Positions 13,729-30,955 of a stretch of 34,477 bases of DNA are shown one piece after another. A program made the translations under genes and the position numbers. Positions within the stretch are counted from its first letter, which is position 1. Every line of letters starts with the position of its first letter. Origin of the DNA: a virus; IMG/VR virus record IMGVR_UViG_3300042691_014218, positions 1 to 34,477 of that record. One strand, given 5' to 3'. The notes below the pieces were generated by a model. The model worked only from the letters and a program-made list of their open reading frames with translations, had not been told where the DNA came from and did not search any database.

Positions 13729-14928
13729 ATGACAACATTATCAACAGTTGGACAGACAGTTGTTTCTGGTTTAACATCAGAATCTTCAAATAGAACAGAA
13801 AGTAATTCTACTTTTGCAATTCCATTAGGAATAGCTGGTACTTCTATTAGTCAGTACCAATTGCCTGCAAGAGAATTAGATCTTGAAATACTTGAAAATG
13901 TTCAACCAATATTAGATCAAATAAATGCTAAAAAATCACAAATAGTTTCTATTTGTGATCAAGTAATGTCTTCTTATATTCCTGGAATAGCACCACCTTT
14001 ATGTGCTGTTGAATCGGAACCGTCAAATTTAGATTCTCCAGTTATTTCTGATACTGATAAATATCCTGCCGTTATTGGTGGTTTTAGTGTTGCTGGAACT
14101 CCTAATCCAGGGACACCTCAAATTGCATATGGAAATGTCAGACCAGATAATATAAGAATATTGAGATACCCTAATTTAGAGAATAGAGTTGCTCCTAATG
14201 ATAATGCTTTAGAGAATTATAAGTTTCCTGTATTGACATCTCAGAATGCTGGGCAAGGAAAAATAGATTCTTTTTTCAAAAATTCAAAATACAACGATGG
14301 TGTTCTTACTTACTATGTAACTAGTGATTCTGGCAATTGGAGTAGTGAAGCATGGAATAGTAATAGTAATGTAATTGGTCAGTATGTCAAAGTTACTGGA
14401 CCAGGAATTGGTACTGTGGGAATTCCTGGAGCATATGATCATCCATCTCAAACATTTACACCAGAACCAGAATATTCTTCAATAGTTTCTGGATTAACTG
14501 GTATTACTACTGGAACTTTTAATGGTATTAGTGTTAATTTTAATCCAACAACATTGAAAATGGAATCAACTGGATTTTTTCCATTATTTCTTTCTACCAC
14601 AGGAACACTTGTTATTGCTTCTGGACTTAATGCAACAACTATTATTAATAGTATTAGTACTTTAGAATCTGAAATTGAAGCATTGAGGGTTGGGATTAGT
14701 ACATGGTTCACTGAAGTTAATACTTTAAAAGAAAGAAGACATGGGCAACAGTTGAGAGTGTGGAGTTATAAGAGAGTTCAGCAGAGAAATAGCACTGAAA
14801 ATGTTAATATTGGATTGGGAATAACTTCTGTTGAACGAGTTGATCCTAGACTACCAACTACAATTTACAACTTCTCTAGTGAAGATAATAGATTTGATGA
14901 TACCAGTATAACATTCGATGCTAACTGA
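13729..14928 (+). CDS. Cyanophage virion structural protein, unknown role
   Basis: 399 residues, rich in Ser, Thr, Asn and Gly with almost no cysteine. I do not recognise a named domain. Residues about 40-75 form a helix; the middle is beta-rich with short Pro/Gly turns (Gly-Pro-Gly-Ile-Gly-Thr-Val-Gly-Ile-Pro-Gly); residues about 300-345 form another helix ending in basic residues. Composition and a private late promoter point to a virion component made late, probably baseplate-periphery, whisker or fibre-connecting. It lies between other fibre-type genes. Confidence 0.5.
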   Translation: MTTLSTVGQTVVSGLTSESSNRTESNSTFAIPLGIAGTSISQYQLPARELDLEILENVQPILDQINAKKSQIVSICDQVMSSYIPGIAPPLCAVESEPSNLDSPVISDTDKYPAVIGGFSVAGTPNPGTPQIAYGNVRPDNIRILRYPNLENRVAPNDNALENYKFPVLTSQNAGQGKIDSFFKNSKYNDGVLTYYVTSDSGNWSSEAWNSNSNVIGQYVKVTGPGIGTVGIPGAYDHPSQTFTPEPEYSSIVSGLTGITTGTFNGISVNFNPTTLKMESTGFFPLFLSTTGTLVIASGLNATTIINSISTLESEIEALRVGISTWFTEVNTLKERRHGQQLRVWSYKRVQQRNSTENVNIGLGITSVERVDPRLPTTIYNFSSEDNRFDDTSITFDAN

Positions 14929-14929
14929 T

Positions 14930-14937
14930 AATAAATA
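14930..14937 (+). promoter_or_regulatory. T4-type late promoter octamer
   Basis: AATAAATA two bases after the stop of the upstream structural gene and about 25 bases before the fibre-type gene at 14962. Same spacing class as the octamers at 568, 13700 and 18496. Confidence 0.6.
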
Positions 14938-14961
14938 ATAACAAAATTATTTTATATAATA

Positions 14962-15558
14962 ATGGCAAAATCACTTATTAGTATTGGATCGACATCTAAT
15001 GATGGAACTGGAGATACATTAAGAGCGGGCGCAGAAAAAATTAACGCCAATTTTGATGAAATCTACAGCACATTTGGAAATGGAACATCTTTAAGTTCTT
15101 CAGTTTCAAATGCAACAACATCTTCTTATGCATCAGTTGCTGGTATTGCAACAATTGCACAGGGATTAAGTGGCGCTCCTAATATTACTGCAGGAATTGT
15201 AACTACATCTGGAAATTTAAATGTAGTTGGAATTATTACTTCATCAGGCGCAACAATTTACAACACAACTACATTAAACAATGTGGTTATTAGTGGTGTA
15301 AATACGCACAGCAATGTATCAAATTTCACTAATACTGTTAATTTTACTGGGACTAGTAATAGTATTAATCAATCTGCAGGAACCGCTGCCATTAATAGAT
15401 TAGTTGTATCTGGGGTCACGACTTCTGGTGTAGGTAATACTGCAACTCTTGGTACTAATAGTACCATGCAATTTTTCCTTCAAAATGATACAACTCTACG
15501 TGTTGCAGTTAGAGGTAGTGATGGGGTAACTAGATATGGAACAATCTCACTTGCTTAA
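14962..15558 (+). CDS. Small tail-fibre-like virion protein
   Basis: 198 residues. The N-terminal Ser-Thr-Ser-Asn-Asp-Gly-Thr-Gly-Asp-Thr-Leu-Arg, then Lys-Ile-Asn-Ala-Asn-Phe-Asp-Glu-Ile-Tyr is a motif seen at the front of many cyanophage fibre proteins, probably for attachment to the baseplate. The rest is a Ser/Thr/Asn-rich series of short strands (Gly-Asn-Leu-Asn-Val-Val-Gly-Ile-Ile-Thr and similar) that also occurs near the end of the large fibre at 18533. No enzyme motif or cysteine is visible. It is the last late gene before the accessory island. Confidence 0.55.
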   Translation: MAKSLISIGSTSNDGTGDTLRAGAEKINANFDEIYSTFGNGTSLSSSVSNATTSSYASVAGIATIAQGLSGAPNITAGIVTTSGNLNVVGIITSSGATIYNTTTLNNVVISGVNTHSNVSNFTNTVNFTGTSNSINQSAGTAAINRLVVSGVTTSGVGNTATLGTNSTMQFFLQNDTTLRVAVRGSDGVTRYGTISLA

Positions 15559-15562
15559 GGGC

Positions 15563-15591
15563 TTGACATACTGGTTTTGACCTTGTATAAT
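15563..15591 (+). promoter_or_regulatory. Consensus sigma70 promoter opening the accessory island
   Basis: TTGACA (15563-15568), exactly 17 bases, TATAAT (15586-15591): a perfect consensus in the gap after a late gene. Expected start near 15598. It implies transcription by unmodified host RNA polymerase early in infection for the genes and tRNA downstream. Confidence 0.85.
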
Positions 15592-15615
15592 GATGAGGTA
15601 AACAAAGGTGATGCC

Positions 15616-15819
15616 ATGATTGTTGATGATGGAGATGAGTATCTGACACGTTGCGTCGTGGATCCCAGCACTCGTACTTTTTTAATTTATTCAAACATGG
15701 GTAATGAAAAAGTAATTGATTGTGCTAATAGTGATGAATTCCTGAATGTTCTCAGTTTTGTTCGGAGCGTCCTTGGATCTGATACTTTAGTTTACGCTGA
15801 TCCCCTTGTGAAAGGGTGA
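15616..15819 (+). CDS. Hypothetical small protein
   Basis: 67 residues from ATG 15616, six bases after AAAGG. The longer frame from TTG 15577 is unlikely, since that codon lies between the -35 and -10 elements. Acidic front (Val-Asp-Asp-Gly-Asp-Glu), a beta-like middle and a C-terminal helix (Phe-Leu-Asn-Val-Leu-Ser-Phe-Val-Arg). No family recognised. First gene after a consensus promoter, so probably expressed early. The end overlaps a hairpin with a GTGA tetraloop (15803-15816) just before tRNA-Gly, possibly a processing signal. Confidence 0.55.
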   Translation: MIVDDGDEYLTRCVVDPSTRTFLIYSNMGNEKVIDCANSDEFLNVLSFVRSVLGSDTLVYADPLVKG

Positions 15820-15824
15820 TCCCT

Positions 15825-15895
15825 GCGGGTGTGGTGTAGAGGTAACATCTGAGCCTTCCAAGCTCCAGTCACGGGTTCGATCCCCGTCACCCGCT
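15825..15895 (+). tRNA. tRNA-Gly (anticodon TCC)
   Basis: A full 71-base cloverleaf: acceptor GCGGGTG pairs with CACCCGC, D stem GTGT/ACAT, anticodon loop CTTCCAA giving TCC (reads GGA), T arm ACGGG-TTCGATC-CCCGT. The CCA end is not encoded. GGA is a very common glycine codon in the late genes of this window, which would explain why the phage keeps it. Confidence 0.93.
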
Positions 15896-15896
15896 T

Positions 15897-15927
15897 ACCA
15901 AAATTGGACTTTAATTCCATTTTTGGT
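15897..15927 (+). other. Hairpin after tRNA-Gly
   Basis: Arms at 15897-15908 and 15916-15927 pair at 11 of 12 positions around a seven-base loop. There is no clear T run on the + strand after it, so it is a weak terminator candidate; it may instead mark the 3' processing site of the tRNA. Confidence 0.4.
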
Positions 15928-15968
15928 CGAAAAAATTTCCCGCCAAAAATTTGTTAAAAAACCTTTTT

Positions 15969-16178
15969 ATGAATCCTTATAAAATTTCATATAAAAAATT
16001 GCAGGAAGAAGTAGTTAAAACAACTCCTGAAAATGTTAAAGAAGCAAATGAGGGTTTATTTCATGCCAAAATGACTTTGCCAGCAGCAGCAAAACATTGT
16101 GGAATGACACAAAAAGAAATGAAATTGACTTTTTTTGAATATCTTAAATATAATAAACCTACTTATCAGGGGGAATAA
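15969..16178 (+). CDS. Hypothetical small protein
   Basis: 69 residues from ATG 15969; the in-frame TTG at 15951 is less likely. No strong ribosome-binding site is visible. Mostly helical, with an Ala-Ala-Ala-Lys-His-Cys-Gly-Met-Thr-Gln-Lys-Glu-Met segment (about 39-51) that could be a helix-turn-helix, so DNA or RNA binding is possible but unproven. I recall similar short proteins from cyanophages without known function. It lies between tRNA-Gly and the cpeT pair, and its end contains a promoter for them. Confidence 0.5.
   Translation: MNPYKISYKKLQEEVVKTTPENVKEANEGLFHAKMTLPAAAKHCGMTQKEMKLTFFEYLKYNKPTYQGE
16125..16154 (+). promoter_or_regulatory. Sigma70-like promoter for the cpeT pair
   Basis: TTGACT (16125-16130), 18 bases, TATAAT (16149-16154), inside the end of the upstream small gene. 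The predicted leader (about 16161-16229) can fold: GGGGG (16169-16173) with CCCCC (16205-16209), enclosing GAGT-ATA-ACTC (16190-16200). Confidence 0.5.
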
Positions 16179-16229
16179 CTAAAGGGATTGAGTATAACTC
16201 TCCGCCCCCATAAAATAAGGGAGGTAACA

Positions 16230-16505
16230 ATGGCGTATAAAATCAATACTACATATTGTTGGTATGAATTGGACAATGAATATGTCATTGTTAAAATGTA
16301 TTTTATTAATCATTGTCCATTTACCTTTGATGAGTTATCATCTATTGTTAGGCAAGACCCTGAAATAATCTCAATAGCAGATAAAAATGTAAAATTTTGC
16401 CCAGAAGATTTGTACAAGTCTTCTTTTTATTTGATAGATGAACAAGTACATCCATGTTTATTTACACTAGATTTAGAAAATCCAGAAGAGTTGCCAAATG
16501 ATTGA
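16230..16505 (+). CDS. Hypothetical protein upstream of cpeT
   Basis: 91 residues. ATG 16230 follows AAGGGAGG at a good distance, so the frame from TTG 16188 is rejected. The protein is acidic with a Trp-Tyr-Glu-Leu front, a central Cys-Pro-Phe-Thr-Phe-Asp-Glu-Leu and a Cys-Pro-Glu-Asp. No family recognised. The stop overlaps the cpeT start by eight bases, so the two are probably translated together; a role beside CpeT is possible but is only inferred from this coupling. Confidence 0.55.
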   Translation: MAYKINTTYCWYELDNEYVIVKMYFINHCPFTFDELSSIVRQDPEIISIADKNVKFCPEDLYKSSFYLIDEQVHPCLFTLDLENPEELPND

Positions 16506-16983
16506 AAAATTTTGTAAATATTTTGAAGGGTATTTTAACAATCAAAAACAAGCATTTTCTAATCCAAGTTCATTTGCTTTGATTGAACTTGAACATTTTC
16601 AATTGTCAAGTAATAAATTTAGAATTATCCAAAAGTATAATATTGATCCTACTCCATATAGAAAAAATATTATCGAAATTTTTGAAGAAAATGATCACTT
16701 GTTAATTAAAAATTATAAAGATAATGAAGAATTGACTTATCTTTCTGGGTGTGATATTATTATGGAATATAAAGATAATAAATTTTTTGGTAAAAATACT
16801 TGTAAAGACTGTATTGTTAACTGGCAAGAAAAGTCTACATATTTAATTACTGAAAGTATTCTTACTGAAAATCTTTATGAAGTAGTTGATCGTGGATTTG
16901 ATACTACGACTGATGAACAAATTTGGGGTTCTTTTTTTGGATCTTTTCAGTTTAATAAAATTAAATCTTTAATTGAGGAGTAA
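16498..16983 (+). CDS. cpeT: Phycobiliprotein lyase, CpeT family
   Basis: 161 residues with the order of motifs of the CpcT/CpeT lyases: Phe-x-Asn-Gln-x-Gln-Ala near residue 14, Asn-Pro-x-x-Phe-Ala-x-Ile, Pro-Tyr-Arg (about 52), Gly-Cys-Asp-Ile-Ile-Met-Glu-Tyr, Phe-Gly-Lys-Asn-Thr-Cys-Lys-Asp-Cys, and the closing Asp-Arg-Gly-Phe-Asp...Trp-Gly-Ser-Phe-Phe-Gly-Ser-Phe. These proteins handle bilins during attachment to phycoerythrin or phycocyanin cysteines. Cyanophages carry cpeT as an auxiliary gene, probably to keep or reshape light harvesting during infection. It is somewhat shorter than host CpeT (near 200 residues). It is followed directly by tRNA-Thr. Confidence 0.88.
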   Translation: MIEKFCKYFEGYFNNQKQAFSNPSSFALIELEHFQLSSNKFRIIQKYNIDPTPYRKNIIEIFEENDHLLIKNYKDNEELTYLSGCDIIMEYKDNKFFGKNTCKDCIVNWQEKSTYLITESILTENLYEVVDRGFDTTTDEQIWGSFFGSFQFNKIKSLIEE

Positions 16984-16994
16984 TCCTCTATTTT

Positions 16995-17068
16995 GCCTCT
17001 GTAGCTCAGTTGGATAGAGCAGGGCTTTTGTAAAGCTCAGGTCGCAAGTTCAAGTCTTGTCGGGGGCT
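16995..17068 (+). tRNA. tRNA-Thr (anticodon TGT)
   Basis: 74 bases: acceptor GCCTCTG pairs with CGGGGGC using two G-T pairs, D stem GCTC/GAGC, anticodon loop TTTGTAA giving TGT (reads ACA), T arm GCAAG-TTCAAGT-CTTGT. CCA is not encoded. ACA is frequent in the virion genes. A small GAGTT-AAT-AACTC hairpin follows at 17071-17083. Confidence 0.92.
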
Positions 17069-17087
17069 TTGAGTTAATAACTCTAAT

Positions 17088-18224
17088 ATGAAAAACGAAG
17101 TAAATTTTAAATATATTGATGTCTTTGATAACAAAGATGTAACTTATGATTTGGAAAAATATCCAATGAATAAGATTATTCTTAGGGAAGTACAAAAATA
17201 TTATCCAAGTGTCCAAGATCTAAGTCTTCTTCATGAACATATTGAAGGTGGAAAAGTATCTGATTTAATGTCTAAGGTAAGTAAAGACTTAACAAAGACT
17301 GAATTTTACGAGTACTTTGATGATATTGTTAAACAATATGTTGTATCCCAAATTGATCGTGATGTTTTAATCCAAAAATTTGGAAATGTTAGGGCAGTTA
17401 TTCCAAATCAAGACAAAATTGGCGCTCTTCTTCATTTTCATCAAGGAAGATGGGTTGGTAACGGTCTTGGATTAAGAACTGTTTGGATGGCATTTACTGA
17501 TTGTTATGAAAGTAATAGTTTACAAATTCTTCCTTTAGAGGAAAGTAGAAAAATTACGATTGACGCAGTTAAAGAAAATTGGACATATGAAAAACTCCAA
17601 GAAGAATGTACAAAATATGCATTCCCTGTAACTATTAAACCTGGACAGTTTCATTTGTTTACTCAGGAACATATTCATGGCAATTTTCCAAATCTCACTA
17701 ATAAAACGAGAATTAGTATTGATGTAAGAATTCTATTGAAAGATGGTCAACCACACCGTAAATGGCCTGGTGCTTACTTTAGGAAATTGGGAGATCTTGA
17801 TATTAATTCTACACCAGTAGAAATTAAATCAGGTGAATCTACAGCAACATATGCTGAGTATGAAGGATTTAAAACAAAAGGAATTGATCTTCATTTTCAA
17901 ACTCTTACCGTAAGAAATTATTGTTCCAGAATGGGATATGTTTTCCCATATCAACATGCGGATAATGAAGGTACTCACCATGCACATTTAGAACATTTAA
18001 TTGAGCATGGAAATATTGATCATTTGTTCCTGTTTAGTATTTTTTCACTACCAGATGATCCAGATAGAAGACAATATTTAATGAATTTAGCTTTAAAGAG
18101 TAATTGTAAACTGCACTTTGCAAATGAAGAATTTGTACTTGACAATGAGAAAATGTTGAGTAAAATAGAGTACTTACGATCGTTTACGAATGATTGGACA
18201 AATCCTGTTGATCAAGTTCTATGA
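17088..18224 (+). CDS. 2OG oxygenase-like protein fused to LIC12192-type carbohydrate-cluster domain
   Basis: 378 residues in two parts. Residues about 80-245 resemble phytanoyl-type 2OG oxygenases of surface-sugar gene clusters: Leu-His-Phe-His (about 115-118), Val-Trp-Met-Ala-Phe-Thr-Asp-Cys, Asn-Ser-Leu-Gln-Ile-Leu-Pro, then His-Gly-Asn (about 195) and Thr-Arg-Ile-Ser-Ile-Asp (Arg about 206). The expected HxD appears as HxH, so metal binding may be altered. Residues about 265-378 (Leu-Thr-Val-Arg-Asn-Tyr-Cys, His-Leu-Glu-His-Leu, Ser-Ile-Phe-Ser-Leu-Pro) resemble the sporadic carbohydrate cluster LIC12192 family, usually a separate protein beside such an oxygenase. A role in modifying a sugar or other surface molecule is inferred. 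Assignment is from memory of the families. Confidence 0.6.
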   Translation: MKNEVNFKYIDVFDNKDVTYDLEKYPMNKIILREVQKYYPSVQDLSLLHEHIEGGKVSDLMSKVSKDLTKTEFYEYFDDIVKQYVVSQIDRDVLIQKFGNVRAVIPNQDKIGALLHFHQGRWVGNGLGLRTVWMAFTDCYESNSLQILPLEESRKITIDAVKENWTYEKLQEECTKYAFPVTIKPGQFHLFTQEHIHGNFPNLTNKTRISIDVRILLKDGQPHRKWPGAYFRKLGDLDINSTPVEIKSGESTATYAEYEGFKTKGIDLHFQTLTVRNYCSRMGYVFPYQHADNEGTHHAHLEHLIEHGNIDHLFLFSIFSLPDDPDRRQYLMNLALKSNCKLHFANEEFVLDNEKMLSKIEYLRSFTNDWTNPVDQVL

Positions 18225-18403
18225 AAATTAATCTTTGGTATTGTAATGATATGAAACAATGGCGTTGGACCTTATGTGATGATTCGAGACCTATATTAAA
18301 GCAAGAATCTGGTCAACAACCAAATCTTAGAGATGCAATGAATGATGTGGCAAATACTGTTGAATATATACTTGACAAACAAGAAAATGGTGCTATAATT
18401 TAA
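18221..18403 (+). CDS. Hypothetical small protein
   Basis: 60 residues; the ATG overlaps the previous TGA (ATGA). Front half has four Trp/Tyr residues and two Cys (Leu-Trp-Tyr-Cys, Trp-Arg-Trp-Thr-Leu-Cys), then a helical C-terminus. No family recognised. Its last 30 bases contain an almost perfect sigma70 promoter, so the end of the gene may be constrained by that element rather than by protein function. Confidence 0.5.
   Translation: MKINLWYCNDMKQWRWTLCDDSRPILKQESGQQPNLRDAMNDVANTVEYILDKQENGAII
18372..18399 (+). promoter_or_regulatory. Strong sigma70 promoter with extended -10
   Basis: TTGACA (18372-18377), 16 bases, TGC-TATAAT (TATAAT 18394-18399). Both hexamers are exact and the TGn extension is present. 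The start would be near 18406, only 40 bases before an intrinsic terminator. Confidence 0.7.
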
Positions 18404-18405
18404 TT

Positions 18406-18468
18406 GCGATACTAATTCGCAGTGACCCAAAAAGTGTGACTTCAGAACCCTCTTTTAGAGGGTTTTGT
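18406..18468 (+). ncRNA. Candidate small RNA between promoter and terminator
   Basis: The predicted transcript is about 63 nt. It contains a 5' hairpin (maximum arms 18403-18409 and 18417-18423, loop TACTAAT), an open A-rich segment (18424-18445) and a 3' terminator hairpin with T run. No reading frame with a ribosome-binding site fits. The architecture is that of bacterial trans-acting small RNAs, but it could also be a leader read through into the fibre gene. Confidence 0.45.
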
Positions 18469-18470
18469 TG
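18446..18470 (+). terminator. Intrinsic terminator closing the accessory island
   Basis: AACCCTCT (18446-18453), loop TTT, AGAGGGTT (18457-18464), then a T-rich tail. A perfect eight-pair stem. It separates early-type transcription from the late fibre gene. Confidence 0.85.
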
Positions 18471-18495
18471 TATTAAAATCACTATTTTTTATGTG

Positions 18496-18503
18496 AATAA
18501 ATA
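18496..18503 (+). promoter_or_regulatory. T4-type late promoter octamer
   Basis: AATAAATA about 30 bases before the giant fibre gene, just after the terminator. Confidence 0.65.
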
Positions 18504-18532
18504 AAACATAGTAGAAACCTAAGAGTAATAAA

Positions 18533-21500
18533 ATGGGTCTTAGTCGCTTAGATAATTTCTTAAAAAATAGCAGAGGAAATACTCTGTATGTCGATCCATC
18601 GAGTATTGACGCTACAGACAGTATTGAAAATCAAGGTAATTCTCTTGCTCGCCCGTTTAAAACAATTCAGAGAGCACTGATAGAAGCAGCAAGATTTTCA
18701 TATCAGCGAGGATTTGATAATGATAGGTTTGGTAGAACCACTATCATAGTTTATCCTGGTGATCATATTATTGATAATAGACCTGGATGGATACCTATTC
18801 ATGAAGCACCTGTAAGTGGTAGTAACTGGAGACAAAGAAGTGGTGCATTATCAAATGATTTTACTGCGTTTAATTTAGATTCTAATTTTGATGTATTTGA
18901 TGATAATAATGATCTGTATAAATTTAATAGTGTTTATGGTGGAGTAATAATACCTCGTGGTACATCTTTAGTAGGACTTGATTTAAGAAAGACTAAAATC
19001 AGACCAAGATTTGTACCTGATCCTACAAATGATAATATTCAAACAACTGCTATTTTCAGAGTAACTGGTTCTTGCTATTTTTATCAGTTTACTCTTTTTG
19101 ATGCCGATCCAGCAGGAACTGTTTATAATTCTTATAATAATACAAAATTTGTACCTAATTTTTCACATCATAAAGTAACTGCGTTTGAATATGCGGATGG
19201 AGCAAATCCAGTAAGTATTAATGATACATTTTTAAACTATTATACTGATAGAACTGATTTAGACTTATATTATCAAAAAATTGGACTTGCTTATGGTCCT
19301 TCAAGTGGAAGAGAAATTGCTAATGATTATCCTAGCACCGCTATAGATGTTCAAGCAAAAGTAGATGAATTTAGAATTGTTGGATCAAAAGGACAAGATG
19401 TTGGTATTACTAGCATAAGATCTGGTGATGGTGTAACTGCTAGTACCACAATTACTGTTGATTTAGAAGAAATTATTCCAGGTTTGGATGTAGATACTCC
19501 AATCAGAATTGAAGGAGTTCCAGTATCTGGATATAATGGTCAATATGTAATTTCTACAGTAGAAACTCCAACTAGGATTACCTATAAAACTTCAGTCGCT
19601 CCTGTTAATCCTTTACCACTAATAGTAAGTGGTTCTCCTACATTAAACGTTGTAGTTGACACTGTAACATCATCTTCTCCATACATATTCAACTGTTCTT
19701 TAAGATCAGTTTTTGGTATGTGTGGTCTTCATGCTGATGGAAGTAAATCAGATGGATTTAAATCAATGGTTGTTGCCCAATTCACAGGAATTGGACTTCA
19801 AAAAGATGATAATGCTTTTGTAAGATATAATAATTCTACAGGTGTATATGAGGATAATACTGCAGTAACGAATATTCACACAAATTCTTCTGCATTATAT
19901 AAACCAACTTATGAAAGTTTCCATATTAAAGCATCTAATGATGCATTCCTACAATTAGTATCTATTTTTGCTATTGGTTATGCAAATCACTTCTTAGTGG
20001 AAAGTGGTGGTGATCACTCTATTACTAACTCAAACTCCAACTTTGGTGCAAAGGCATTAGTTGCAAGAGGATTTAAGCGTGACGCTTTCCCAAGAGATGA
20101 TACTGGATTTATAACTCACATTATACCACCAAAAGAAATTGAAACCTCAGATGTTACGATTGAATTTGATGCTATTGATGTTAATGCAACTGTTGGTGTT
20201 GGATCAACAACTAGACTGTACTTATATAACAGAACCAACCCTAATGACCCACCAAATCACATTGTAGAAGGATACAGAATTGGTGCTAAAGTAGACGATA
20301 GTTTGCATGTGTTGTTGAATGATGGTAGTGGTACTACAAGATCACTATCTGCTAGAATTATTATGCCTAATACCCAAAATACGGGTGTTTACGAATCAAC
20401 TTCTAGAAAAATAGTTCATGTTGGTAGAACGACTGCAGGAATTAATAGTATTGCTGCGGATACATTAACATTTACTACTCCACATAAATTTATTAATGGT
20501 GAAACTATTAGAATTACCAGTAGCACTGGTGAATTACCTGATGGATTAAGACATAATCAGGTTTACTATGCAATAACAAATGGTGTAAACTCTGACCAAA
20601 TTCAAATTGCACAGACATTTAATGATACTGTTACTGCAGATGCAATTTCAATTAATAATAAAGGTGGTATATTAGTCGTAGAAAGTAGAGTATCTGATAA
20701 AGTTTCTGGTGATATTGGACATCCTATTCAGTTTGATAGTAATATAGGGCAATGGTATTTAACTGTAAGTGGAATTTCTACATTTAATAATCTTACTTCT
20801 GCTATTGTTGGTCTAGGGACAAATGGATTAGGTAGTGCGACTTCCAGATCATTTATAAAAAGAACCCCAGATACTAGATCTTTATCCGATAAAATTTACA
20901 AAGCAAGATATATTATTCCAAGAGATTCTGTTGTTGTTGCTAGACCACCTCAGGAAGGATTTGTAATTCAAGAATCTAATGATAATATTGGACCAAATGC
21001 TGCCGAAATTATAAAGTACAATAGTGTAGATTCTGTAAACTTATCTAATAGTTCTGAATTAAGAAACTATAGATTAATATCTGATGCTATTTGGGATAAT
21101 TTAGTTGGTATTGCAACTTTTACTACAGAAGTTGCACATGAACTTTCTGCAGGTTCTTTAATTGAGATTAAAAATATTAAGACAACTACCAATGTAAATG
21201 GTATTGGAAACAGTGGATTTAATGGATACCATGTAGTTTCATCAAAACCAACCAGAAGAACATTTACAGTTGGATTGACTACAAATCCTGGTACTTTTAT
21301 AAACAATACTTCTGTTAGAGATGAAAATCTACCTTATTATAGTAGAGCAAAATTCAATAATACATTCGTAGTATATAAGTCTGATGAAATTCAAGAGTAT
21401 GTTCCAAATGATAAAGATGGAATTTATCATTTAACCCTGCTAAGTGTTTCGAATTCACCAAATGTAGTACCATTTGATGGACTAAGATTTTCTCAACCAA

Positions 21501-24418
21501 TTAAAAATCTTTATCCTCAGTTAGATCGTGATAATTCAAATTCCGATCCACAAAAGGCAACATCGTTTGCACTACCAAATCCAATTGGTTTAGTTGAAGT
21601 TGATAACCCAGAACATAGTATTACTAGAGAAACTTTAGTTAATAAATTACATGATTTTGCAGTTGGTTTTGGACTAACTGACATTCAATCATCATCTGGT
21701 GTTGCTCATACCTTATATACAAAATTAGATCATGGTCTTAATAGAATTACTAGAGTTGGTATTGTAAGTACTGGACGAAATTATGGAAATGGTTCAGGAA
21801 CAGATCAAACTTTATACAATGCAAAGTTAGTTGGATTTGCTGGATCTACTACTGGTAAGTATGCAACTGCTAATATAAAAATTAATGCATCTGGTTCTAT
21901 TACTGCTGTTAATATTGTTGATGGTGGTAGTGCATATGGCATTGGTAATACTTTAGCAATCGTTGGTGTTGCAACAACTTCCGCTCATATTGTTGGTGTT
22001 GTAAGTGTAACTCAAATTTATAATAATATCGGTGATACCATTGCAGTAGAAGGTGTTCAGGGAGATACTTTTAAAACATATAATAACTTATACAGAATTA
22101 CAAGTATAAATGTGGGGCAAGAGAAACAAATTCAAGTTTCTTCTGCATCAACAATTACTGCAGATTATGAATTTATTGGATCATTACCAATAATTGGTGT
22201 TAATACTAATGGATTGGTCAAAGTTAATACTGATGCTTTATTGTATACTGCAGCATATGTAACTGGAAAAACCATAGGAATTTCATCAATATCCTATCAA
22301 AAAACAACTGGTATTGCTAGTGTTACATTTTCACAACCTCATGGATATTATGTTGATAATAAAGTAAGAATTAGTGGATTTAATGAGAATTTCTTTAATG
22401 GGGATTTTATTGTTAAGAAAATTAATAGTGTAAATTCTTTTGATATTAATGTTGGTGTAAATACTATTTCCTTAGGAACTACTACAAATACTGGTGCATA
22501 TGCATTTAAACCTGGATTTGGTGCTCAAGGTGGATTTTTAAATGTTAATAATGAAAGAAGTTCTGGTAGAATTACCCCATATTATGCTGGAATTACAACT
22601 ACGTTATCTATTGCATTAACAAACCCAAATACAAATACACTTACTGTTGCTGATGCTCTAAGACTTAATCTGCAGGTTGGTGATTATCTTATTGTAGATA
22701 GTGAGATAATGAGAGTTTCTTCTACAGTAACATCTTCAACACAAATTAATGTTTTCCGTGGTTTATTTGGTAGTTCTAAAGAAAGTCATCCACTTAATTC
22801 TGTTGTAAGAAGAGTTAAATTTATCCCAATTGAATTTAGAAGGAACTCAATTCTTCGTGCTTCTGGTCATACATTTGAGTATCTTGGATTTGGTCCTGGT
22901 AACTATTCTACTGCTCTTCCAGAAAGACAGGATAGAAAGTTTACTGATACTGAAAGAGTACTGTCACAATCAGTAAGTGATGATGGTGGTGCTCCAATTT
23001 ACACTGGTATGGATGACAGAGGTAATAATTATACTGTTAATGCTGTTACTAATTCATCTACTGGTCAAGAACTTCTTGTAAATACTCCAATACCTTCTGT
23101 TAGAGGTGAAGATTTAACATCAGACACAACTTCTGTTGGATTTGATGTACAATCAACATCAGAGTTAACAATTCAAAGATCATTAAAAGTTGAAGGTGGA
23201 AATGCTGGAACTATAATTTCGGAATTTAATGGTCCTGTTATATTCAACAATAAGTTATCATCTAATTCTGATGAAGGTATTGAAGCAAATTCCCTATATT
23301 TACAGGGTGATGCTACTATCTCTAGAAAGTACACTGTTGGTGTATCGCAACCATCTTTAGCAGGTAACCCAGGAGATATTGTATTTTATTCTGATCCTCA
23401 TCCAGGTGGAACGATTGGATGGGTTTATACAGTAGAAAATAATTGGAAAGAATTTGCACCAATTAAGAATGAAAATGGGCACTTTGTTGGTATCTTCAGT
23501 GGTTCATTTATTGGTGATGGATCTGCTCTTAGTAGTGTATCTGATATTTGGGTTTTTGATGGTGTTGGTATTTCAACGACTGCTAATGTTGGTATCGAAA
23601 CAACTTCAGCAAAACCAGGATATTCGCTTTATGCTTCTGGACCAGTATTATTTGAAAATAACGTAGAATTTAGATCTCAGTCTCTACTTTGGAATATTAC
23701 TAATGGTTTCTTAGTTAATACTGGTATTACTACATTTAATCAACAATTGAATGCTAATACATTTAGAACTGTTGGTGTTGCTACGTTCCAAAATGATATT
23801 ATTGTAACTACTAATCCAGCAACAACTGGAGATACTGCTGGTAATTATTTAAAATTTGTTCAAACTGATACTGCTATCAACTCTTCGTATTTCTATGGTG
23901 GAATTCTTTGGGATGGTAATGATACTGGTAATAATGGAACTAGAGGATATATTAGAGGAGAATCTGAAGGAACTTCTGGTCAATTTGCTATAACTTTTGG
24001 TACTCAATCAACTGGTGCAAGTAATCCACAGGAAAGATTGAGACTTGATAGTGTTGGTGATGTTAATGTCACTAACAATTTAAATGTTGGTATTAATATT
24101 GTTGCTTCTGGTGAAATAACTGCCAATTCTGATGAAAGAATTAAAACTAATATTAAGACTATTGATAATGCACTTGATAAAGTTCTTCAACTTCGTGGAG
24201 TTGAGTATGATCGTACAGATATTGAAAAGCATCAAATTGGTGTTATTGCTCAAGAGGTTGAGAAAGTCTTACCAGACTTAGTTTTAGATGGTGAGAAAAA
24301 GTCTGTTGCGTATGGTAACATGGTAGCAGTTCTTATCGAAGCGATCAAAGAGCAACAAAAACAAATTGATGCTCAAGGTAAGCAAATCGAGGAACTTTTA
24401 AAGAGACTTGACGGATAA
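18533..24418 (+). CDS. Giant tail-fibre/spike protein with C-terminal S74 chaperone domain
   Basis: 1961 residues. The front (Asn-Thr-Leu-Tyr-Val-Asp-Pro, Arg-Pro-Phe-Lys-Thr-Ile-Gln-Arg-Ala-Leu, about 15-50) is the opening of pectate-lyase-like beta-helix proteins and recurs in cyanophage fibres. The body is a long series of Ser/Thr/Gly/Asn-rich strands with little charge. The last 100 residues are a Peptidase_S74 intramolecular chaperone: Ser-Asp-Glu-Arg-Ile-Lys (Ser about 1866, Lys five later, the self-cleavage pair), Gly-Val-Ile-Ala-Gln-Glu-Val-Glu, then a coiled coil (Glu-Gln-Gln-Lys-Gln-Ile-Asp). This domain folds the trimer and is then cut off. It probably binds the host surface and sets host range. 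It has a private late promoter and ends at a strong terminator. Confidence 0.85.
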   Translation: MGLSRLDNFLKNSRGNTLYVDPSSIDATDSIENQGNSLARPFKTIQRALIEAARFSYQRGFDNDRFGRTTIIVYPGDHIIDNRPGWIPIHEAPVSGSNWRQRSGALSNDFTAFNLDSNFDVFDDNNDLYKFNSVYGGVIIPRGTSLVGLDLRKTKIRPRFVPDPTNDNIQTTAIFRVTGSCYFYQFTLFDADPAGTVYNSYNNTKFVPNFSHHKVTAFEYADGANPVSINDTFLNYYTDRTDLDLYYQKIGLAYGPSSGREIANDYPSTAIDVQAKVDEFRIVGSKGQDVGITSIRSGDGVTASTTITVDLEEIIPGLDVDTPIRIEGVPVSGYNGQYVISTVETPTRITYKTSVAPVNPLPLIVSGSPTLNVVVDTVTSSSPYIFNCSLRSVFGMCGLHADGSKSDGFKSMVVAQFTGIGLQKDDNAFVRYNNSTGVYEDNTAVTNIHTNSSALYKPTYESFHIKASNDAFLQLVSIFAIGYANHFLVESGGDHSITNSNSNFGAKALVARGFKRDAFPRDDTGFITHIIPPKEIETSDVTIEFDAIDVNATVGVGSTTRLYLYNRTNPNDPPNHIVEGYRIGAKVDDSLHVLLNDGSGTTRSLSARIIMPNTQNTGVYESTSRKIVHVGRTTAGINSIAADTLTFTTPHKFINGETIRITSSTGELPDGLRHNQVYYAITNGVNSDQIQIAQTFNDTVTADAISINNKGGILVVESRVSDKVSGDIGHPIQFDSNIGQWYLTVSGISTFNNLTSAIVGLGTNGLGSATSRSFIKRTPDTRSLSDKIYKARYIIPRDSVVVARPPQEGFVIQESNDNIGPNAAEIIKYNSVDSVNLSNSSELRNYRLISDAIWDNLVGIATFTTEVAHELSAGSLIEIKNIKTTTNVNGIGNSGFNGYHVVSSKPTRRTFTVGLTTNPGTFINNTSVRDENLPYYSRAKFNNTFVVYKSDEIQEYVPNDKDGIYHLTLLSVSNSPNVVPFDGLRFSQPIKNLYPQLDRDNSNSDPQKATSFALPNPIGLVEVDNPEHSITRETLVNKLHDFAVGFGLTDIQSSSGVAHTLYTKLDHGLNRITRVGIVSTGRNYGNGSGTDQTLYNAKLVGFAGSTTGKYATANIKINASGSITAVNIVDGGSAYGIGNTLAIVGVATTSAHIVGVVSVTQIYNNIGDTIAVEGVQGDTFKTYNNLYRITSINVGQEKQIQVSSASTITADYEFIGSLPIIGVNTNGLVKVNTDALLYTAAYVTGKTIGISSISYQKTTGIASVTFSQPHGYYVDNKVRISGFNENFFNGDFIVKKINSVNSFDINVGVNTISLGTTTNTGAYAFKPGFGAQGGFLNVNNERSSGRITPYYAGITTTLSIALTNPNTNTLTVADALRLNLQVGDYLIVDSEIMRVSSTVTSSTQINVFRGLFGSSKESHPLNSVVRRVKFIPIEFRRNSILRASGHTFEYLGFGPGNYSTALPERQDRKFTDTERVLSQSVSDDGGAPIYTGMDDRGNNYTVNAVTNSSTGQELLVNTPIPSVRGEDLTSDTTSVGFDVQSTSELTIQRSLKVEGGNAGTIISEFNGPVIFNNKLSSNSDEGIEANSLYLQGDATISRKYTVGVSQPSLAGNPGDIVFYSDPHPGGTIGWVYTVENNWKEFAPIKNENGHFVGIFSGSFIGDGSALSSVSDIWVFDGVGISTTANVGIETTSAKPGYSLYASGPVLFENNVEFRSQSLLWNITNGFLVNTGITTFNQQLNANTFRTVGVATFQNDIIVTTNPATTGDTAGNYLKFVQTDTAINSSYFYGGILWDGNDTGNNGTRGYIRGESEGTSGQFAITFGTQSTGASNPQERLRLDSVGDVNVTNNLNVGINIVASGEITANSDERIKTNIKTIDNALDKVLQLRGVEYDRTDIEKHQIGVIAQEVEKVLPDLVLDGEKKSVAYGNMVAVLIEAIKEQQKQIDAQGKQIEELLKRLDG

Positions 24419-24441
24419 TTGACCAATTGATAAACTGTCAC

Positions 24442-24469
24442 AAGGGGTCCCCCAGGACCCCTTTGTTTT
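24442..24469 (+). terminator. Intrinsic terminator after fibre gene
   Basis: AAGGGGTCC (24442-24450), loop CCCA, GGACCCCTT (24455-24463), followed by a T-rich run. A nine-pair perfect stem, the end of the late fibre transcript. Confidence 0.88.
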
Positions 24470-24473
24470 GCTG

Positions 24474-24479
24474 TATAAT
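24474..24479 (+). promoter_or_regulatory. -10-like element before helicase
   Basis: TATAAT 14 bases before ATG 24493, directly after the terminator. No -35 match is visible at 16-18 bases, and the leader would be very short. Supported mainly by its location at a transcription boundary. Confidence 0.4.
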
Positions 24480-24492
24480 AATTACATCATCA

Positions 24493-25734
24493 ATGAGTTC
24501 CATGTTCCAACTTCGCCCCCATCAGAAATCTGCTCTTGAGGCGATGCTGCTCCATGCAAAAGGTATTGTCGTTGCTCCTACAGGCGCAGGTAAGAGCATC
24601 ATCGCTATCTATGATACTATTCGCCATTTCGCTTTGGGAAACCAAACTGTGGTTGTGGTTGCTCCTAGACTGCTTCTTGCTCAGCAGTTGTGTTCTGAGT
24701 TCATGGAGCACATCACTGATGCTTCTGTAATGCATGTTCACTCTGCTAAAGACTGCAATTACTTTGCTACAACTAAACCTGATGAGATTGGCGATTGGTG
24801 TGAAAATACTCAAGGTAACAAACTGATTTTTACAACTTATAATTCTCTTCAGCGCATCGTTGACGCAGGTATTCATGTCAATGCTATCTATTTTGACGAA
24901 GCACACAATTCTGTTAAAAAATCATTTTTTGATGGCACACGCATTCTATCTAAGTATGCTAACCATTGCTATTTCTTTACTGCAACTCCGAAATATTCTT
25001 CTACTCCGAAAAAACCAGGAATGAATGATCATGAAGTTTATGGTAAGATCATCTTTAATGTTCCTGCTCCTGAACTAATTGCCAATGGTTCCATTCTTCC
25101 TCCTAAAATCAATGCTATGAATATTGGTTCTGCTCGTGATAAGGATCAGAATGCTGCTGAGAGGGATTGTATGACCCTCCTGGATACTATTCTGAATGAA
25201 GATCATATGGACAAAGTTCTTGTTGCTGCTCCTAACACCAAGGTTTTAATTCGTATGATTGCTGAGACTGATTTCATGACAGAAGTTCAGTCTTATGGTT
25301 ATGATGTTCTTTGGATCACTGCTAAGTATGGTGCATTTATCAACAACACAAAAATCAGTCGTGAAGAGTTCTTTAACAAGATCTCTGACTTTGGTAAAGA
25401 TCCTAACAAAAAGTTCATTGTCCTTCATTACTCCATCCTTAGTGAAGGTATTTCTGTGCCTGGTCTTACTTCTCTTGTTATGATGCGTCAGATGAATGTG
25501 ATTGAGATGTGTCAGTCTATCGGTCGCGTTATCCGTCTTCATCTTGATGACATCAAAGCAATTCAGAACGGTCAAATCAAGGCGGGTGACTTGAATTCAT
25601 ATACTAAATCTTTTGGTCTAATCCATGTTCCTGTTTACAGCAACACTGGTATTTCCACAGTGCGTCGTCTTCAATCTGTTGTCGATACTGTGTTTGTTGA
25701 GGGTCAACCTGCTATTTCAGTAATTAAAAAATGA
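24493..25734 (+). CDS. Superfamily 2 DNA/RNA helicase
   Basis: 413 residues from ATG 24493; frames starting upstream would run through a terminator. SF2 motifs in order: Ala-Pro-Thr-Gly-Ala-Gly-Lys-Ser (Walker A, Lys34), Val-Val-Ala-Pro-Arg (Ia), Asp-Glu-Ala-His (about 135), Phe-Thr-Ala-Thr-Pro (III), and Gln-Ser-Ile-Gly-Arg-Val-Ile-Arg (VI, about 339-346). An ATP-driven translocase or helicase for phage recombination, repair or replication. T4 UvsW is the obvious analogue but has about 500 residues with an extra N-terminal domain and different motif sequences, so equivalence is not claimed. Codon use (CGT/CGC arginine, more C-ending codons) differs sharply from the fibre gene before it. The stop overlaps the next start (ATGA). 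Confidence 0.85.
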   Translation: MSSMFQLRPHQKSALEAMLLHAKGIVVAPTGAGKSIIAIYDTIRHFALGNQTVVVVAPRLLLAQQLCSEFMEHITDASVMHVHSAKDCNYFATTKPDEIGDWCENTQGNKLIFTTYNSLQRIVDAGIHVNAIYFDEAHNSVKKSFFDGTRILSKYANHCYFFTATPKYSSTPKKPGMNDHEVYGKIIFNVPAPELIANGSILPPKINAMNIGSARDKDQNAAERDCMTLLDTILNEDHMDKVLVAAPNTKVLIRMIAETDFMTEVQSYGYDVLWITAKYGAFINNTKISREEFFNKISDFGKDPNKKFIVLHYSILSEGISVPGLTSLVMMRQMNVIEMCQSIGRVIRLHLDDIKAIQNGQIKAGDLNSYTKSFGLIHVPVYSNTGISTVRRLQSVVDTVFVEGQPAISVIKK

Positions 25735-26168
25735 AATACGAAGTTATACGAGATCAATTTTATGAGTGTTTGGATCTGACCTGGGATGTTATCAACACTC
25801 AAGTTGAAAAAGAAATTCAAAATAATACATGTAGAATTATAGGTAACGATGAAGAAAAGACTATTCTTCTTTTAGATAATGAGAATTTTCATCCAATCAT
25901 ATCTAAAATGTATGCTATAATGAGATATAAGTATCGTCTTACGACTTTACATATATACACTTCACAAAATAATGCACAGACATTTGGAAGGCATTGTGAT
26001 CAGTCAGACGTTTTAATTGTTCAATCAATAGGTAAAATGTCTTATAAATTTGATGATGGTGAATTAATCGTATTAAAACCTGGAGATGGGGTTTACATCC
26101 CAAAAGGAATGTATCATGATCCTATTCCTATCGAACCTAGAGTGTCATTAAGTTTTTCTTGGAATTAA
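25731..26168 (+). CDS. Cupin-fold metal-binding protein (JmjC/cupin-type oxygenase-like)
   Basis: 145 residues. Phe-Gly-Arg-His88-Cys-Asp90 gives an HxD pair; after a Met-Ser-Tyr-Lys-Phe strand comes Leu-Lys-Pro-Gly-Asp-Gly-Val-Tyr-Ile-Pro-Lys-Gly-Met-Tyr-His129, the second cupin motif with the third ligand, then Ser-Leu-Ser-Phe-Ser. This is a single small jelly-roll barrel, like the core of Cupin_4/JmjC-type 2OG hydroxylases, but shorter than them. A hydroxylase or a plain metal-binding cupin cannot be separated by eye. It overlaps the helicase stop and returns to AGA-type codons, beginning the small-gene run. Confidence 0.6.
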   Translation: MKYEVIRDQFYECLDLTWDVINTQVEKEIQNNTCRIIGNDEEKTILLLDNENFHPIISKMYAIMRYKYRLTTLHIYTSQNNAQTFGRHCDQSDVLIVQSIGKMSYKFDDGELIVLKPGDGVYIPKGMYHDPIPIEPRVSLSFSWN

Positions 26169-26170
26169 TT

Positions 26171-26344
26171 ATGTTAGAAGGATTTGTAACAAAAGATGGG
26201 TATGCAGCAGTACCTTTTGGAAAACAACTTATGGTTATTTACGATGGACAGCAGTTGAAAGTATGCAGAACAGAAAGTTCTGCTAGGAATTTTATTAAAA
26301 AACACTCTTCTCAACCAAAACCTGGAACTATTTTTGTACAATGA
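26171..26344 (+). CDS. Hypothetical small protein
   Basis: 57 residues from ATG 26171 (TTG 26159 would overlap the upstream gene and is less likely). A basic, compact beta-type protein with a Gly-Thr-Ile-Phe-Val end; no family recognised. The ATGATGATG run at its end starts the next gene, so the two are translationally coupled. Confidence 0.5.
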   Translation: MLEGFVTKDGYAAVPFGKQLMVIYDGQQLKVCRTESSARNFIKKHSSQPKPGTIFVQ

Positions 26345-26550
26345 TGATGAAAAAGGAAAAAACTAAATTTGTTTGTGTTTCCCCTCTTTCAAACAAAGCA
26401 CGATATCACTTTCATTTGCATATGGATAATCTCCATTCGTGCCGAGTAAAAGATGAAAAGGATGGTAAAATCTATCTTGAGTCTTTAAATAAACAGCATT
26501 ATTTTTGGATCGATAAAAACTCTGATAAAAATTGGAAAATTGAAAAATGA
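26341..26550 (+). CDS. Hypothetical small basic protein
   Basis: 69 residues, Lys-rich, with a His-Phe-His-Leu-His-Met segment (about 23-28). The start may be any of three in-register ATG codons at 26341-26349. Its stop overlaps the next ATG (ATGA). No family recognised. Confidence 0.5.
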   Translation: MMMKKEKTKFVCVSPLSNKARYHFHLHMDNLHSCRVKDEKDGKIYLESLNKQHYFWIDKNSDKNWKIEK

Positions 26551-26753
26551 AAGTTCAAACAGAAACAGATGCTCTGGTAACTATTACTGTTGACAGAGAA
26601 GGTTTAGAAACAATGATTAATGCAGCTTCTGCTGCTATTACTTATCTGAATGAATGGAATATGGGTGATGAATATGATACTGACATCACCCCTTATCATG
26701 AAATTTTATACACTCTTAAACAAAAATACGAAAGTGTCTATGGAAAATTTTAG
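26547..26753 (+). CDS. Hypothetical small acidic protein
   Basis: 68 residues, acidic, mostly helical, with Ile-Asn-Ala-Ala-Ser-Ala-Ala-Ile-Thr-Tyr in the middle. It could be a small host-takeover protein, but nothing identifies it. It overlaps both neighbours by short steps, as in a polycistronic early operon. Confidence 0.5.
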   Translation: MKVQTETDALVTITVDREGLETMINAASAAITYLNEWNMGDEYDTDITPYHEILYTLKQKYESVYGKF

Positions 26754-26943
26754 TATTGCTCGTTCTGAATTGATGCATTATAGACTGCAGGCATTCCTAA
26801 GGGAATTTAACTGCTCAGACATTGAATATATTGGGTTGCGTAATTCTGAACATTGGTATAAAATTGATGGGCATGAGGTAAATGTAAAGGATATTGAGGA
26901 ATTTGATCAAATTGATGATGATGAACAAACAGTTACTTATTAA
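26740..26943 (+). CDS. Hypothetical small acidic protein
   Basis: 67 residues from ATG 26740, overlapping the previous gene by 14 bases; the longer frame from 26650 lies mostly over the previous gene and is rejected. Strongly acidic C-terminus (Glu-Glu-Phe-Asp-Gln-Ile-Asp-Asp-Asp-Glu). No family recognised. The next gene starts inside its end. Confidence 0.5.
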   Translation: MENFSIARSELMHYRLQAFLREFNCSDIEYIGLRNSEHWYKIDGHEVNVKDIEEFDQIDDDEQTVTY

Positions 26944-27406
26944 TGATAAAAATCTAATAAATTATTTTTTAAATTTATTAGATTTTATCCAAAATTATCC
27001 TCAAGTTTATAGGGATGTGACAAACCATTGCTTGTCTCCAAACTGTTTTGCATCAAATAATCTTTTAAATCTAATAACCGATAATCAATTTGTAAATAAA
27101 ATCAACTTTATTCTGGGAGAATGTGAGAAACATATTCCAGATAAGGTTGATTATTTTTATATTCATATGGTTGACTATAAAAATGGTGGGGATATGTTAA
27201 TACATAAACATGATCACAATGAAGATTATTCGTTTATTTTATATTTGAATGACTGTGATGATGGGTATACAACTTTATATACTGATAGACCTATCAGAGT
27301 AAAACCAGAAACTGGTAAAATTCTTATATTTTCTTCTGATGTTTATCATTCAGCAACTTCTTCAAATAGTAAAAAAGTATTAGTCGGAGGATTAAAAATA
27401 AAATGA
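26915..27406 (+). CDS. Putative 2OG/Fe(II) oxygenase
   Basis: About 163 residues. The start is uncertain among three consecutive ATG codons (26915-26923), with an upstream TTG at 26894. Motifs: His-Lys-His-Asp-His (about 97-101, HxH plus possible HxD register), Tyr-Ser-Phe-Ile-Leu-Tyr-Leu-Asn, Gly-Lys-Ile-Leu-Ile-Phe-Ser-Ser-Asp-Val-Tyr-His (about 145), then Lys-Lys-Val-Leu-Val. The usual substrate-carboxylate arginine is Lys here. It belongs with the 2OG-FeII_Oxy_5-type proteins of cyanophages. The substrate is unknown. It overlaps the next oxygenase by four bases, forming a co-translated pair. Confidence 0.65.
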   Translation: MMMNKQLLINDKNLINYFLNLLDFIQNYPQVYRDVTNHCLSPNCFASNNLLNLITDNQFVNKINFILGECEKHIPDKVDYFYIHMVDYKNGGDMLIHKHDHNEDYSFILYLNDCDDGYTTLYTDRPIRVKPETGKILIFSSDVYHSATSSNSKKVLVGGLKIK

Positions 27407-28026
27407 AGAGAAAATATCCACCAGATACTAGAGAATTTACCACAATGAATTATTTTGGTAATACTTTGTATCATGCATATAATATTTTGTCGGAAGAAGA
27501 TAGACTTGGACTTTTGGAAGAAATTGAAGATGAAATAAAAACCAATTCTTCTGGTGGATATAATATTGTTGAAGCAACTAGTACTTTACCGACACGAAAA
27601 ATAAAAAATAAAAAGTGTTGGTATAATTTCTTTAAAGTTGTTAAAAAGCATCTTTATGAATATGCAAAAATAACTAATAATCCTAAAATAAAAACATTAA
27701 AAGTTGCTGAATATTGGGCAAAAAGAATGGGACCTGACATTAGTGACGAGGATTACCATAATGAGATGTACATATATTATGGTAATAGTCATTCTCATAA
27801 TAATCTTGACTTGGGTATCATATATTATTTGCAAAATCCATCTAGAATTTATGGAACTATTATGGAACAAGATGGTGTAGAATTTATTGTTCCAGGAGAT
27901 CAAAATTCTTTAATTATTCATCACCCAGATATTAATCATGAAGCAGTTCTTCCCCATCCATCATTTTTAGATGGAACTTGTAGATGTGTCCTGATAGTTG
28001 ACTTTAAATACTCTAAATATACTTAA
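27403..28026 (+). CDS. Putative 2OG/Fe(II) oxygenase, paralogue A of a duplicated pair
   Basis: 207 residues. His130-Ser-His132 starts the metal site, followed by Leu-Gly-Ile-Ile-Tyr-Tyr-Leu-Gln, Val-Pro-Gly-Asp, then Ile-Asn-His179-Glu-Ala and Arg194-Cys-Val-Leu-Ile-Val. This is the beta-helix oxygenase pattern with HxH in place of HxD. The front 42 aligned residues from Tyr-Pro-Pro-Asp-Thr-Arg onward share 33 with the gene at 29827, and the DNA is also alike, so the two arose by a fairly recent duplication. Together they flank the radical SAM cassette. Substrate unknown. Confidence 0.65.
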   Translation: MKRKYPPDTREFTTMNYFGNTLYHAYNILSEEDRLGLLEEIEDEIKTNSSGGYNIVEATSTLPTRKIKNKKCWYNFFKVVKKHLYEYAKITNNPKIKTLKVAEYWAKRMGPDISDEDYHNEMYIYYGNSHSHNNLDLGIIYYLQNPSRIYGTIMEQDGVEFIVPGDQNSLIIHHPDINHEAVLPHPSFLDGTCRCVLIVDFKYSKYT

Positions 28027-28042
28027 CTACGACAATTATCTT

Positions 28043-28204
28043 ATGGATAATGATAAATGGAATAGAGGATTGGATCTATTCATTGAAAGTGTTCATAAAC
28101 CAGATCCTGAATTGAGGCAATGTGCCCACAATCAAAAGTGCTATAATGAATTAATGTCAGTTCGTGAACATGTTCTTGAATATTTAAAAACAATAAGAAA
28201 GTGA
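28043..28204 (+). CDS. Hypothetical small protein
   Basis: 53 residues from ATG 28043; a longer frame would start inside the previous oxygenase. Helical, with Cys-Ala-His-Asn-Gln-Lys-Cys in the middle, which might bind metal but is too short to judge. It sits 16 bases after one oxygenase and one base before the next. Confidence 0.45.
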   Translation: MDNDKWNRGLDLFIESVHKPDPELRQCAHNQKCYNELMSVREHVLEYLKTIRK

Positions 28205-28205
28205 T

Positions 28206-29807: not shown

Positions 29808-29826
29808 TTTCACATATTAATTTAAA

Positions 29827-30907: not shown

Positions 30908-30930
30908 TAGACACTTTCGCAAGTGTCTAT
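30907..30930 (+). terminator. Ten-pair hairpin at operon boundary
   Basis: ATAGACACTT (30907-30916), loop TCGC, AAGTGTCTAT (30921-30930). Perfectly paired and beginning at the stop of the upstream gene, but with no T run after it, so it may be an RNA end-stabiliser or processing site rather than an intrinsic terminator. Confidence 0.45.
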
Positions 30931-30955
30931 GGATATGGTTTCAAAGTCTATTATG

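Follow-up and report, generated by a model that had tools for sequence, protein, structure and literature searches.

Control of the host by lytic cyanophages is believed to run chiefly via proteins. Yfr1, an abundant RNA that is nearly universal in cyanobacteria, is 54 to 69 nt long and consists of two stem-loops with 16 to 20 unpaired nucleotides between them that hold ACUCCUCACAC (PMC2190773). This motif is common to Yfr1 and Yfr10, and Yfr2 interacts with both RNAs via a nearly complementary motif, blocking the action of both on a target (PMC6778093, PMC2518516). Phage-borne sponges of host small RNAs are already known in kind, an example being SprY, which acts on RNAIII (PMC12197685); AgvB anti-GcvB is the name of an Rfam family. 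Among the non-coding RNAs of T4-like cyanophages are CfrI, wcaG, manA, glnA and abiF (PMC9964418, PMC2864571, PMC12197685).

The window analyzed in this work is an IMG/VR virus record of 34,477 bases. Between a 60-aa open reading frame (ORF) that ends at 18403 and a tail-fibre gene that starts at 18533, it contains a short unit, 18406-18470, which we hold with high confidence to be a small-RNA gene. The reading that we prefer for the whole, with a probability of about 0.4, is that of a gene transcribed by the host polymerase into a trans-acting phage small RNA (sRNA) of ~65 nt that would sponge Yfr1. The features of the locus are as follows.

18372..18377, + strand: -35 hexamer TTGACA of the sRNA promoter, read from the sequence and kept in relatives
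18394..18399, + strand: -10 hexamer TATAAT with TG in front, read from the sequence and kept in relatives
18405..18421, + strand: hairpin 1, pairing 18405-18409 with 18417-18421, from fold and covariation
18406..18470, + strand: predicted sRNA of class A, ~65 nt, the start being inferred from the -10 hexamer
18421..18428, + strand: core block 1, AGTGACCC, invariant in alignments, with no known partner
18434..18440, + strand: core block 2, GTGTGAC, of which GTGTGA forms the complement of UCACAC in the Yfr1 motif
18443..18467, + strand: terminator hairpin (hairpin 2), then an imperfect T-run, from sequence and covariation
18497..18503, + strand: ATAAATA, late-promoter-like element of the fibre gene, read from the sequence and recurring after the unit in relatives
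18533..24418, + strand: tail-fibre gene, 1961 aa, downstream context and not part of the RNA

A preliminary description of this DNA had proposed an exact TTGACA/TATAAT promoter with TG and a 16-base spacer at 18372-18399, which the sequence bears out and which relatives keep. A scan of positions 14500-34477 of the window gave two 12/12 matches, of which this is one; it overlaps the last codons of the upstream 60-aa ORF. The other such match, TTGACA-17-TATAAT at 15563-15591, precedes an 80-aa ORF and a tRNA-Gly gene, and no GTGTG unit follows it. The predicted RNA folds, in this order, into hairpin 1, an unpaired stretch of ~20-21 nt and the terminator hairpin, and this fold beats 200 of 200 dinucleotide shuffles (z -4.86); the 5′ hairpin and the unpaired piece described earlier are thus both recovered. 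The terminator is a real stem-loop, but its limits had to be redrawn, from eight pairs at 18446-18470 to 11 pairs at 18443-18467, and the U-run, UUUUGUUGU, is imperfect. The earlier statement that no coding frame fits also stands, as the only plus-strand ORFs of at least 20 aa over the unit are the tail of the 60-aa ORF and a 22-aa GTG ORF at 18436-18504. With its own promoter and terminator and without a conserved reading frame, the unit satisfies one criterion for an independent small-RNA gene of bacterial type. A search of the window against Rfam at the gathering score returned two tRNAs and no other family, and a second Rfam search yielded only weak, far-below-threshold matches (best E value, 0.074). 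Regarding the ATAAATA element, the T4-type late-promoter consensus is TATAAAT (PMC3037559).

Relatives were gathered by searches with the 60-aa protein and with sequence patterns, of which AGTGACCCRAAANGTGTGAC has matches in 56 viral contigs. The RNA is retained in relatives while its surroundings vary: its upstream neighbour is the 60-aa ORF, an ORF of ~213 aa ending in ...WKEEKWYNNQDDTESLQ, one of ~207 aa, an E-rich ORF or a tRNA, and the fibre gene lies directly downstream in 43 of 50 loci. The window and 47 distinct relatives were compared, and in 40 of these 48 sequences a promoter that matches the consensus at 10 or more of 12 positions is found directly upstream of the RNA; among 4,462 randomly drawn 62-nt stretches of these loci, 2.2% reach this score. 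Spacers differ between contexts and the two hexamers are kept. Relatives lacking promoter and terminator would have refuted the sRNA as first described, and these counts do not show that outcome. Many of the 48 sequences represent a single lineage in which the promoter sits within the last coding part of the ~213-aa ORF, and L115, with an RNA identical to that of the window, is probably the same phage. Scores of 7 to 9 were obtained for eight sequences (L084, L129, L133, L143, L167, L208, L215 and L216); the unit lies downstream of a tRNA in L084 and L215, where processing could free the RNA. In L208 the core stands behind a different hairpin and ahead of a tRNA, and L216 and L217 are alike. 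In the cultured phage S-H34, the class A core precedes tRNA-Tyr and has a hairpin and a promoter of its own.

Several matches outside this set were discarded as chance, namely one in an Alistipes genome (L204), one from a plasmid search with hairpin 1 and the core, and the three matches of pattern GTGACCCNAAANGTGTGAC among 84,980 genomes, none of them cyanobacterial by title. The slot after the 60-aa ORF (18221-18403 in the window, and its counterparts in relatives) is a hot spot whose content differs between contigs, being tRNAs, small ORFs or the small RNA. Just after the tRNAs downstream of this ORF, several contigs (L031, L049 and L071) share a recurrent piece like GCGCTGGAAAGATAAACCAGAATGCCG, which looks like another structured RNA. 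The 378-aa upstream protein had no match in phages.

The preliminary description had named a covariance search of relatives as a check, and this search found the unit elsewhere. Model R1, built from 14 sequences, scores 82.8 bits on the window (E value, 3.7e-16) and, among 80 loci fetched with the fibre protein alone, matches 23 at an E value of at most 0.1, in the same position ahead of the fibre gene. The alignment comprises 36 matches from 37 supplied sources; 98.0% of its cells pair, and both partners vary in 7 of the 15 pairs. The outermost terminator pair, for instance, is C-G, G-C or U-A. Double-sided changes amount to 54 cells against a shuffled mean of 17.6, with 0 of 500 shuffles as high, and slid structures yield only 0 to 4 such cells. 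Covariation thus speaks for a conserved secondary structure, with the reservation that the alignment, having been fitted to this structure, leans towards it. In the core between the helices, AGUGACCC-RAAAN-GUGUGAC, variation is almost confined to R and N. Part of this invariance arises by construction, as most members were fetched with patterns that contain the core; the core is also present in loci fetched by protein alone (L002-L004 and others). Excluding the T tail, class A units are 61 to 69 nt long. S-H34 also has a second, weak R1 match (L082:2320-2382; 29.6 bits), which has AGTGAGAGTGACTT before a terminator, lies downstream of the tRNA-linked core and is perhaps a decayed or divergent copy. 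On the strength of the promoters, a start beside hairpin 1, covariation, the core, the terminator and the lack of an Rfam match, an sRNA is by far the best reading of the unit and very probably the correct one, at ~65 nt instead of the ~63 nt estimated previously; that it is transcribed is inferred, in the absence of expression data.

Others of the loci fetched with the fibre protein have different short units in the slot ahead of the fibre gene. In 63 of 124 distinct fibre-upstream regions we found a promoter of at least 10/12 together with a terminator, and these units fall into three classes: 30 belong to class A, that of the window, 14 to class B, defined by CCCCUUCCGUGUG(A)CUUC and like forms, and 19 to class C, defined by GUGUGAAGGA... 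and GUGUGAAGGAAGUG. The classes have little in common beyond GUGUG. All 44 distinct promoter-terminator units fetched by protein have GTGTG before the terminator, where shuffles lead one to expect 1.2, and 37 of them have GTGTGA; this count excludes loci fetched with a GTGTG-bearing pattern, and related units are not independent. Class C was found in 0 of 15 class A or B records, window included, and as one copy in each of four class C records, while an R1 match is absent from the class C record G018 and from SynMITS9220M01. One class per record is what interchangeable parts would look like. A conserved promoter, covarying hairpins, a conserved core and a terminator thus characterize the unit, and three classes that share GUGUG occupy one slot.

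Class C is not confined to that slot. The 16-mer GTGTGAAGGAAGTGCG occurs in 118 stretches of viral contigs; in the 98 distinct contexts inspected, a promoter of at least 10/12 lies within 50 nt upstream in 70, six T residues lie within 60 nt downstream in 62, and both are present in 46. The -10 box mostly ends 6 to 10 nt ahead of the motif. The predicted 5′ end is (G)GUGUGAAGG, and the RNA would start with GGUGUGAAGGAAGU. Class C units stand ahead of the fibre gene, ahead of tRNAs, or downstream of the major capsid gene, where a late-type element immediately precedes them. They are found in the cultured phages S-SM2, Bellamy, Syn9, S-CREM1, SynMITS9220M01, DSL-LC03, S-RIM8 A.HR1 and ACG-2014c, and DNA similar to the Syn9 unit with its flanks is present in 150 of 50,697 phage records (two besides Syn9 were inspected). 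Rfam searches of six of these loci returned tRNAs only. When six isolate genomes were scanned under the strict requirement of a 10/12 or better promoter, GTGTG and a terminator, no candidates emerged, whereas a motif search of the same genomes found class C in four (Syn9, S-CREM1, SynMITS9220M01 and DSL-LC03), all missed by the strict filter, which therefore undercounts. In S-PM2 and P-TIM68 the motif search revealed no unit, the 10-mer being present only where no terminator was seen; the unit is thus not universal. S-CREM1 also carries an abiF RNA directly ahead of tRNA-Gly (RF03085; OP535465.1 10531-10567, L227:1223-1259; 52.2 bits; E value, 1.4e-9), which could counter an AbiF system of the host by acting as a false antitoxin. 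In the S-CREM1 paper this RNA is named and no mechanism is given.

We propose the following mode of action for the RNA. Host RNA polymerase would start adjacent to hairpin 1 from the consensus sigma-70 promoter, and because of this promoter the RNA is probably early, a timing that is likewise inferred. Transcription would end at hairpin 2, ahead of the late fibre gene. The two hairpins would shield the ends of the RNA and present the unpaired core, whose exposed GUGUG(A) would most likely pair with the UCACAC half of host Yfr1, and also with Yfr10. Such pairing would remove Yfr1 from action, as the host's own Yfr2 does; both this sponge effect and the relief of Yfr1 targets are inferences.

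Yfr1 can only tentatively be named as the main target, an inference from sequence alone. As read from the sequences, the GGUGUGAAGGAAGU of class C is able to pair with every base of the undecamer ACUCCUCACAC if two A residues bulge out, with energies of -11.6 (consensus) and -15.7 (L020) against the bare undecamer. We also calculated duplexes with the unpaired part of MED4 Yfr1, with 2000 shuffled motifs and 2000 shuffled Yfr1 loops as controls. Energies were -12.9 to -16.9 kcal/mol for three forms of class C, -8.6 for class A, and -8.6 and -6.7 for two forms of class B. Shuffled motifs did equally well in 120, 28 and 4 cases for class C, 29 for class A, and 0 and 18 for class B; for shuffled Yfr1 loops, the respective numbers were 45, 32 and 7, 107, and 59 and 305. 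Class A offers Yfr1 only six pairs and some class B forms five. Judged from these predicted duplexes, complementarity to Yfr1 would be fair for class C and merely suggestive for class A; by form, it appears good for the class C form L020 and for class B, and modest for class A. The invariant class A block AGUGACCC has no partner if Yfr1 is the target. As Yfr1 was chosen after class C had been seen and 16S rRNA had been tried, the match carries less weight. Two other targets were rejected: for pairing of class C with the 3′ end of 16S rRNA (anti-Shine-Dalgarno), 717 to 1243 of 2000 shuffles were equally good, and the core is unchanged where the fibre protein begins with MPLSR, as judged by eye, which speaks against the fibre-gene start codon.

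A trans-acting sRNA might instead have another RNA partner, a host or phage mRNA or an rRNA, an option that is unlikely without being negligible. Helix 44 of 16S rRNA is the best rRNA candidate: its GUCACAC, which occurs once in E. coli 16S, is complementary to GUGUGAC, and in Leptolyngbya the stretch also has GGUCAC, complementary to part of block 1, so that this target would account for both class A blocks. However, 11 of 100 shuffled cores match the unremarkable duplex on E. coli 16S, 86, 55 and 16 of 100 do so for three cyanobacterial rRNA stretches, GGUCAC is absent from Scytonema and Allocoleopsis, and the site sits inside a ribosome helix. Alternatively, the RNA could be a decoy for a host protein that binds GUGUG or a false antitoxin for a defence toxin whose antitoxin is an RNA, which we judge rather improbable. 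Pairing would not require a 20-nt core as invariant as that of class A, and the abiF RNA beside a tRNA in S-CREM1 sets a precedent, being a defence-related RNA carried by a cyanophage. Yet pairing is at least as good a fit for three classes that share little except a word of five bases, and the window record matched neither RF03085, which likewise found no match in control genomes but does match in S-CREM1, nor, tRNAs apart, any other Rfam family. We know of no protein that recognizes the GUGUG word.

Two further explanations dispense with action in trans. A strong promoter followed by an early terminator could insulate or attenuate the late fibre gene in cis, as the position of this gene directly downstream in most loci and the late element after the terminator would allow. 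The same core nevertheless stands ahead of tRNAs in S-H34 and L208, and class C lies behind the capsid gene and ahead of tRNAs; these tRNA- and capsid-linked copies do not fit a purely cis role ahead of the fibre gene, nor does an insulator require an invariant unpaired core, and we regard this explanation as quite improbable. That a chance promoter stands beside an ordinary terminator, without a separate RNA, is barely tenable: promoter-like sites are indeed frequent (119 observed, 106 in shuffles), but conservation at fixed spacing in unrelated contexts, covariation and the invariant core argue against coincidence. As an aside on one of the records, the Leptolyngbya boryana plasmid3 record carries rRNA genes, with GTCACAC and GGTCAC of 16S helix 44 at L251:1375-1410; these are complementary to parts of both class A blocks, and the combination is not shared by the two other cyanobacteria inspected.

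If capture of Yfr1 is nevertheless the function, many T4-like cyanophages, cultured model phages among them, might each harbour one copy of a mobile sRNA gene, of at least three classes and in several slots, that captures Yfr1 in imitation of Yfr2, this capture being the reason why the classes converge on GUGUG and host expression being rewired by an RNA of ~45-70 nt; in this general form the proposal is a doubtful one. If true, a widespread, unannotated sRNA directed against a highly conserved cyanobacterial regulator would represent a new layer of phage control. It is directly testable with class C in cultured phage-host pairs (S-SM2/WH8017, Bellamy/WH8109 and Syn9). Whatever the target may be, annotation gains something new in an RNA family that covaries and has a promoter of its own ahead of the fibre gene. 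We found no report of a GUGUG small RNA in the open-access literature; subscription papers were mostly outside this scope, and earlier detection of such a transcript in Syn9 is not excluded.

The RNAs already described from cyanophages differ from this unit, CfrI being an antisense RNA of ~225 nt at psbA, and wcaG, manA, glnA and abiF being Rfam families, none of which matches it. As with SprY and AgvB, the principle would be titration of a host sRNA by an RNA that a phage carries; those are prophage borne in heterotroph hosts, whereas here lytic cyanophages carry three classes and binding is only inferred. The window RNA is like Yfr1 (RF01116; PMC2190773) in its size and in its layout, in which two stem-loops flank a conserved, unpaired stretch, and passes the test of its architecture (54 to 69 nt, 16 to 20 unpaired nt), its own stretch being ~20-21 nt. 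It is nonetheless unrelated to Yfr1 in sequence, ACUCCUCACAC being absent from the unpaired stretch and no Rfam match being found, and it is phage encoded and exposes the complement of part of the Yfr1 motif. Compared with Yfr2, the phage RNA is shorter, phage encoded and without the long stem and 12-nt loop; in the structural test, the window RNA had GUGUG, lacked the long stem and gave no Rfam match, and for class A the resemblance is limited to GUGUG. What it has in common with Yfr2 is an exposed GUGUG-type motif nearly complementary to Yfr1, and class C resembles published 5′ pieces of Yfr2 (PMC2518516, PMC2662882).
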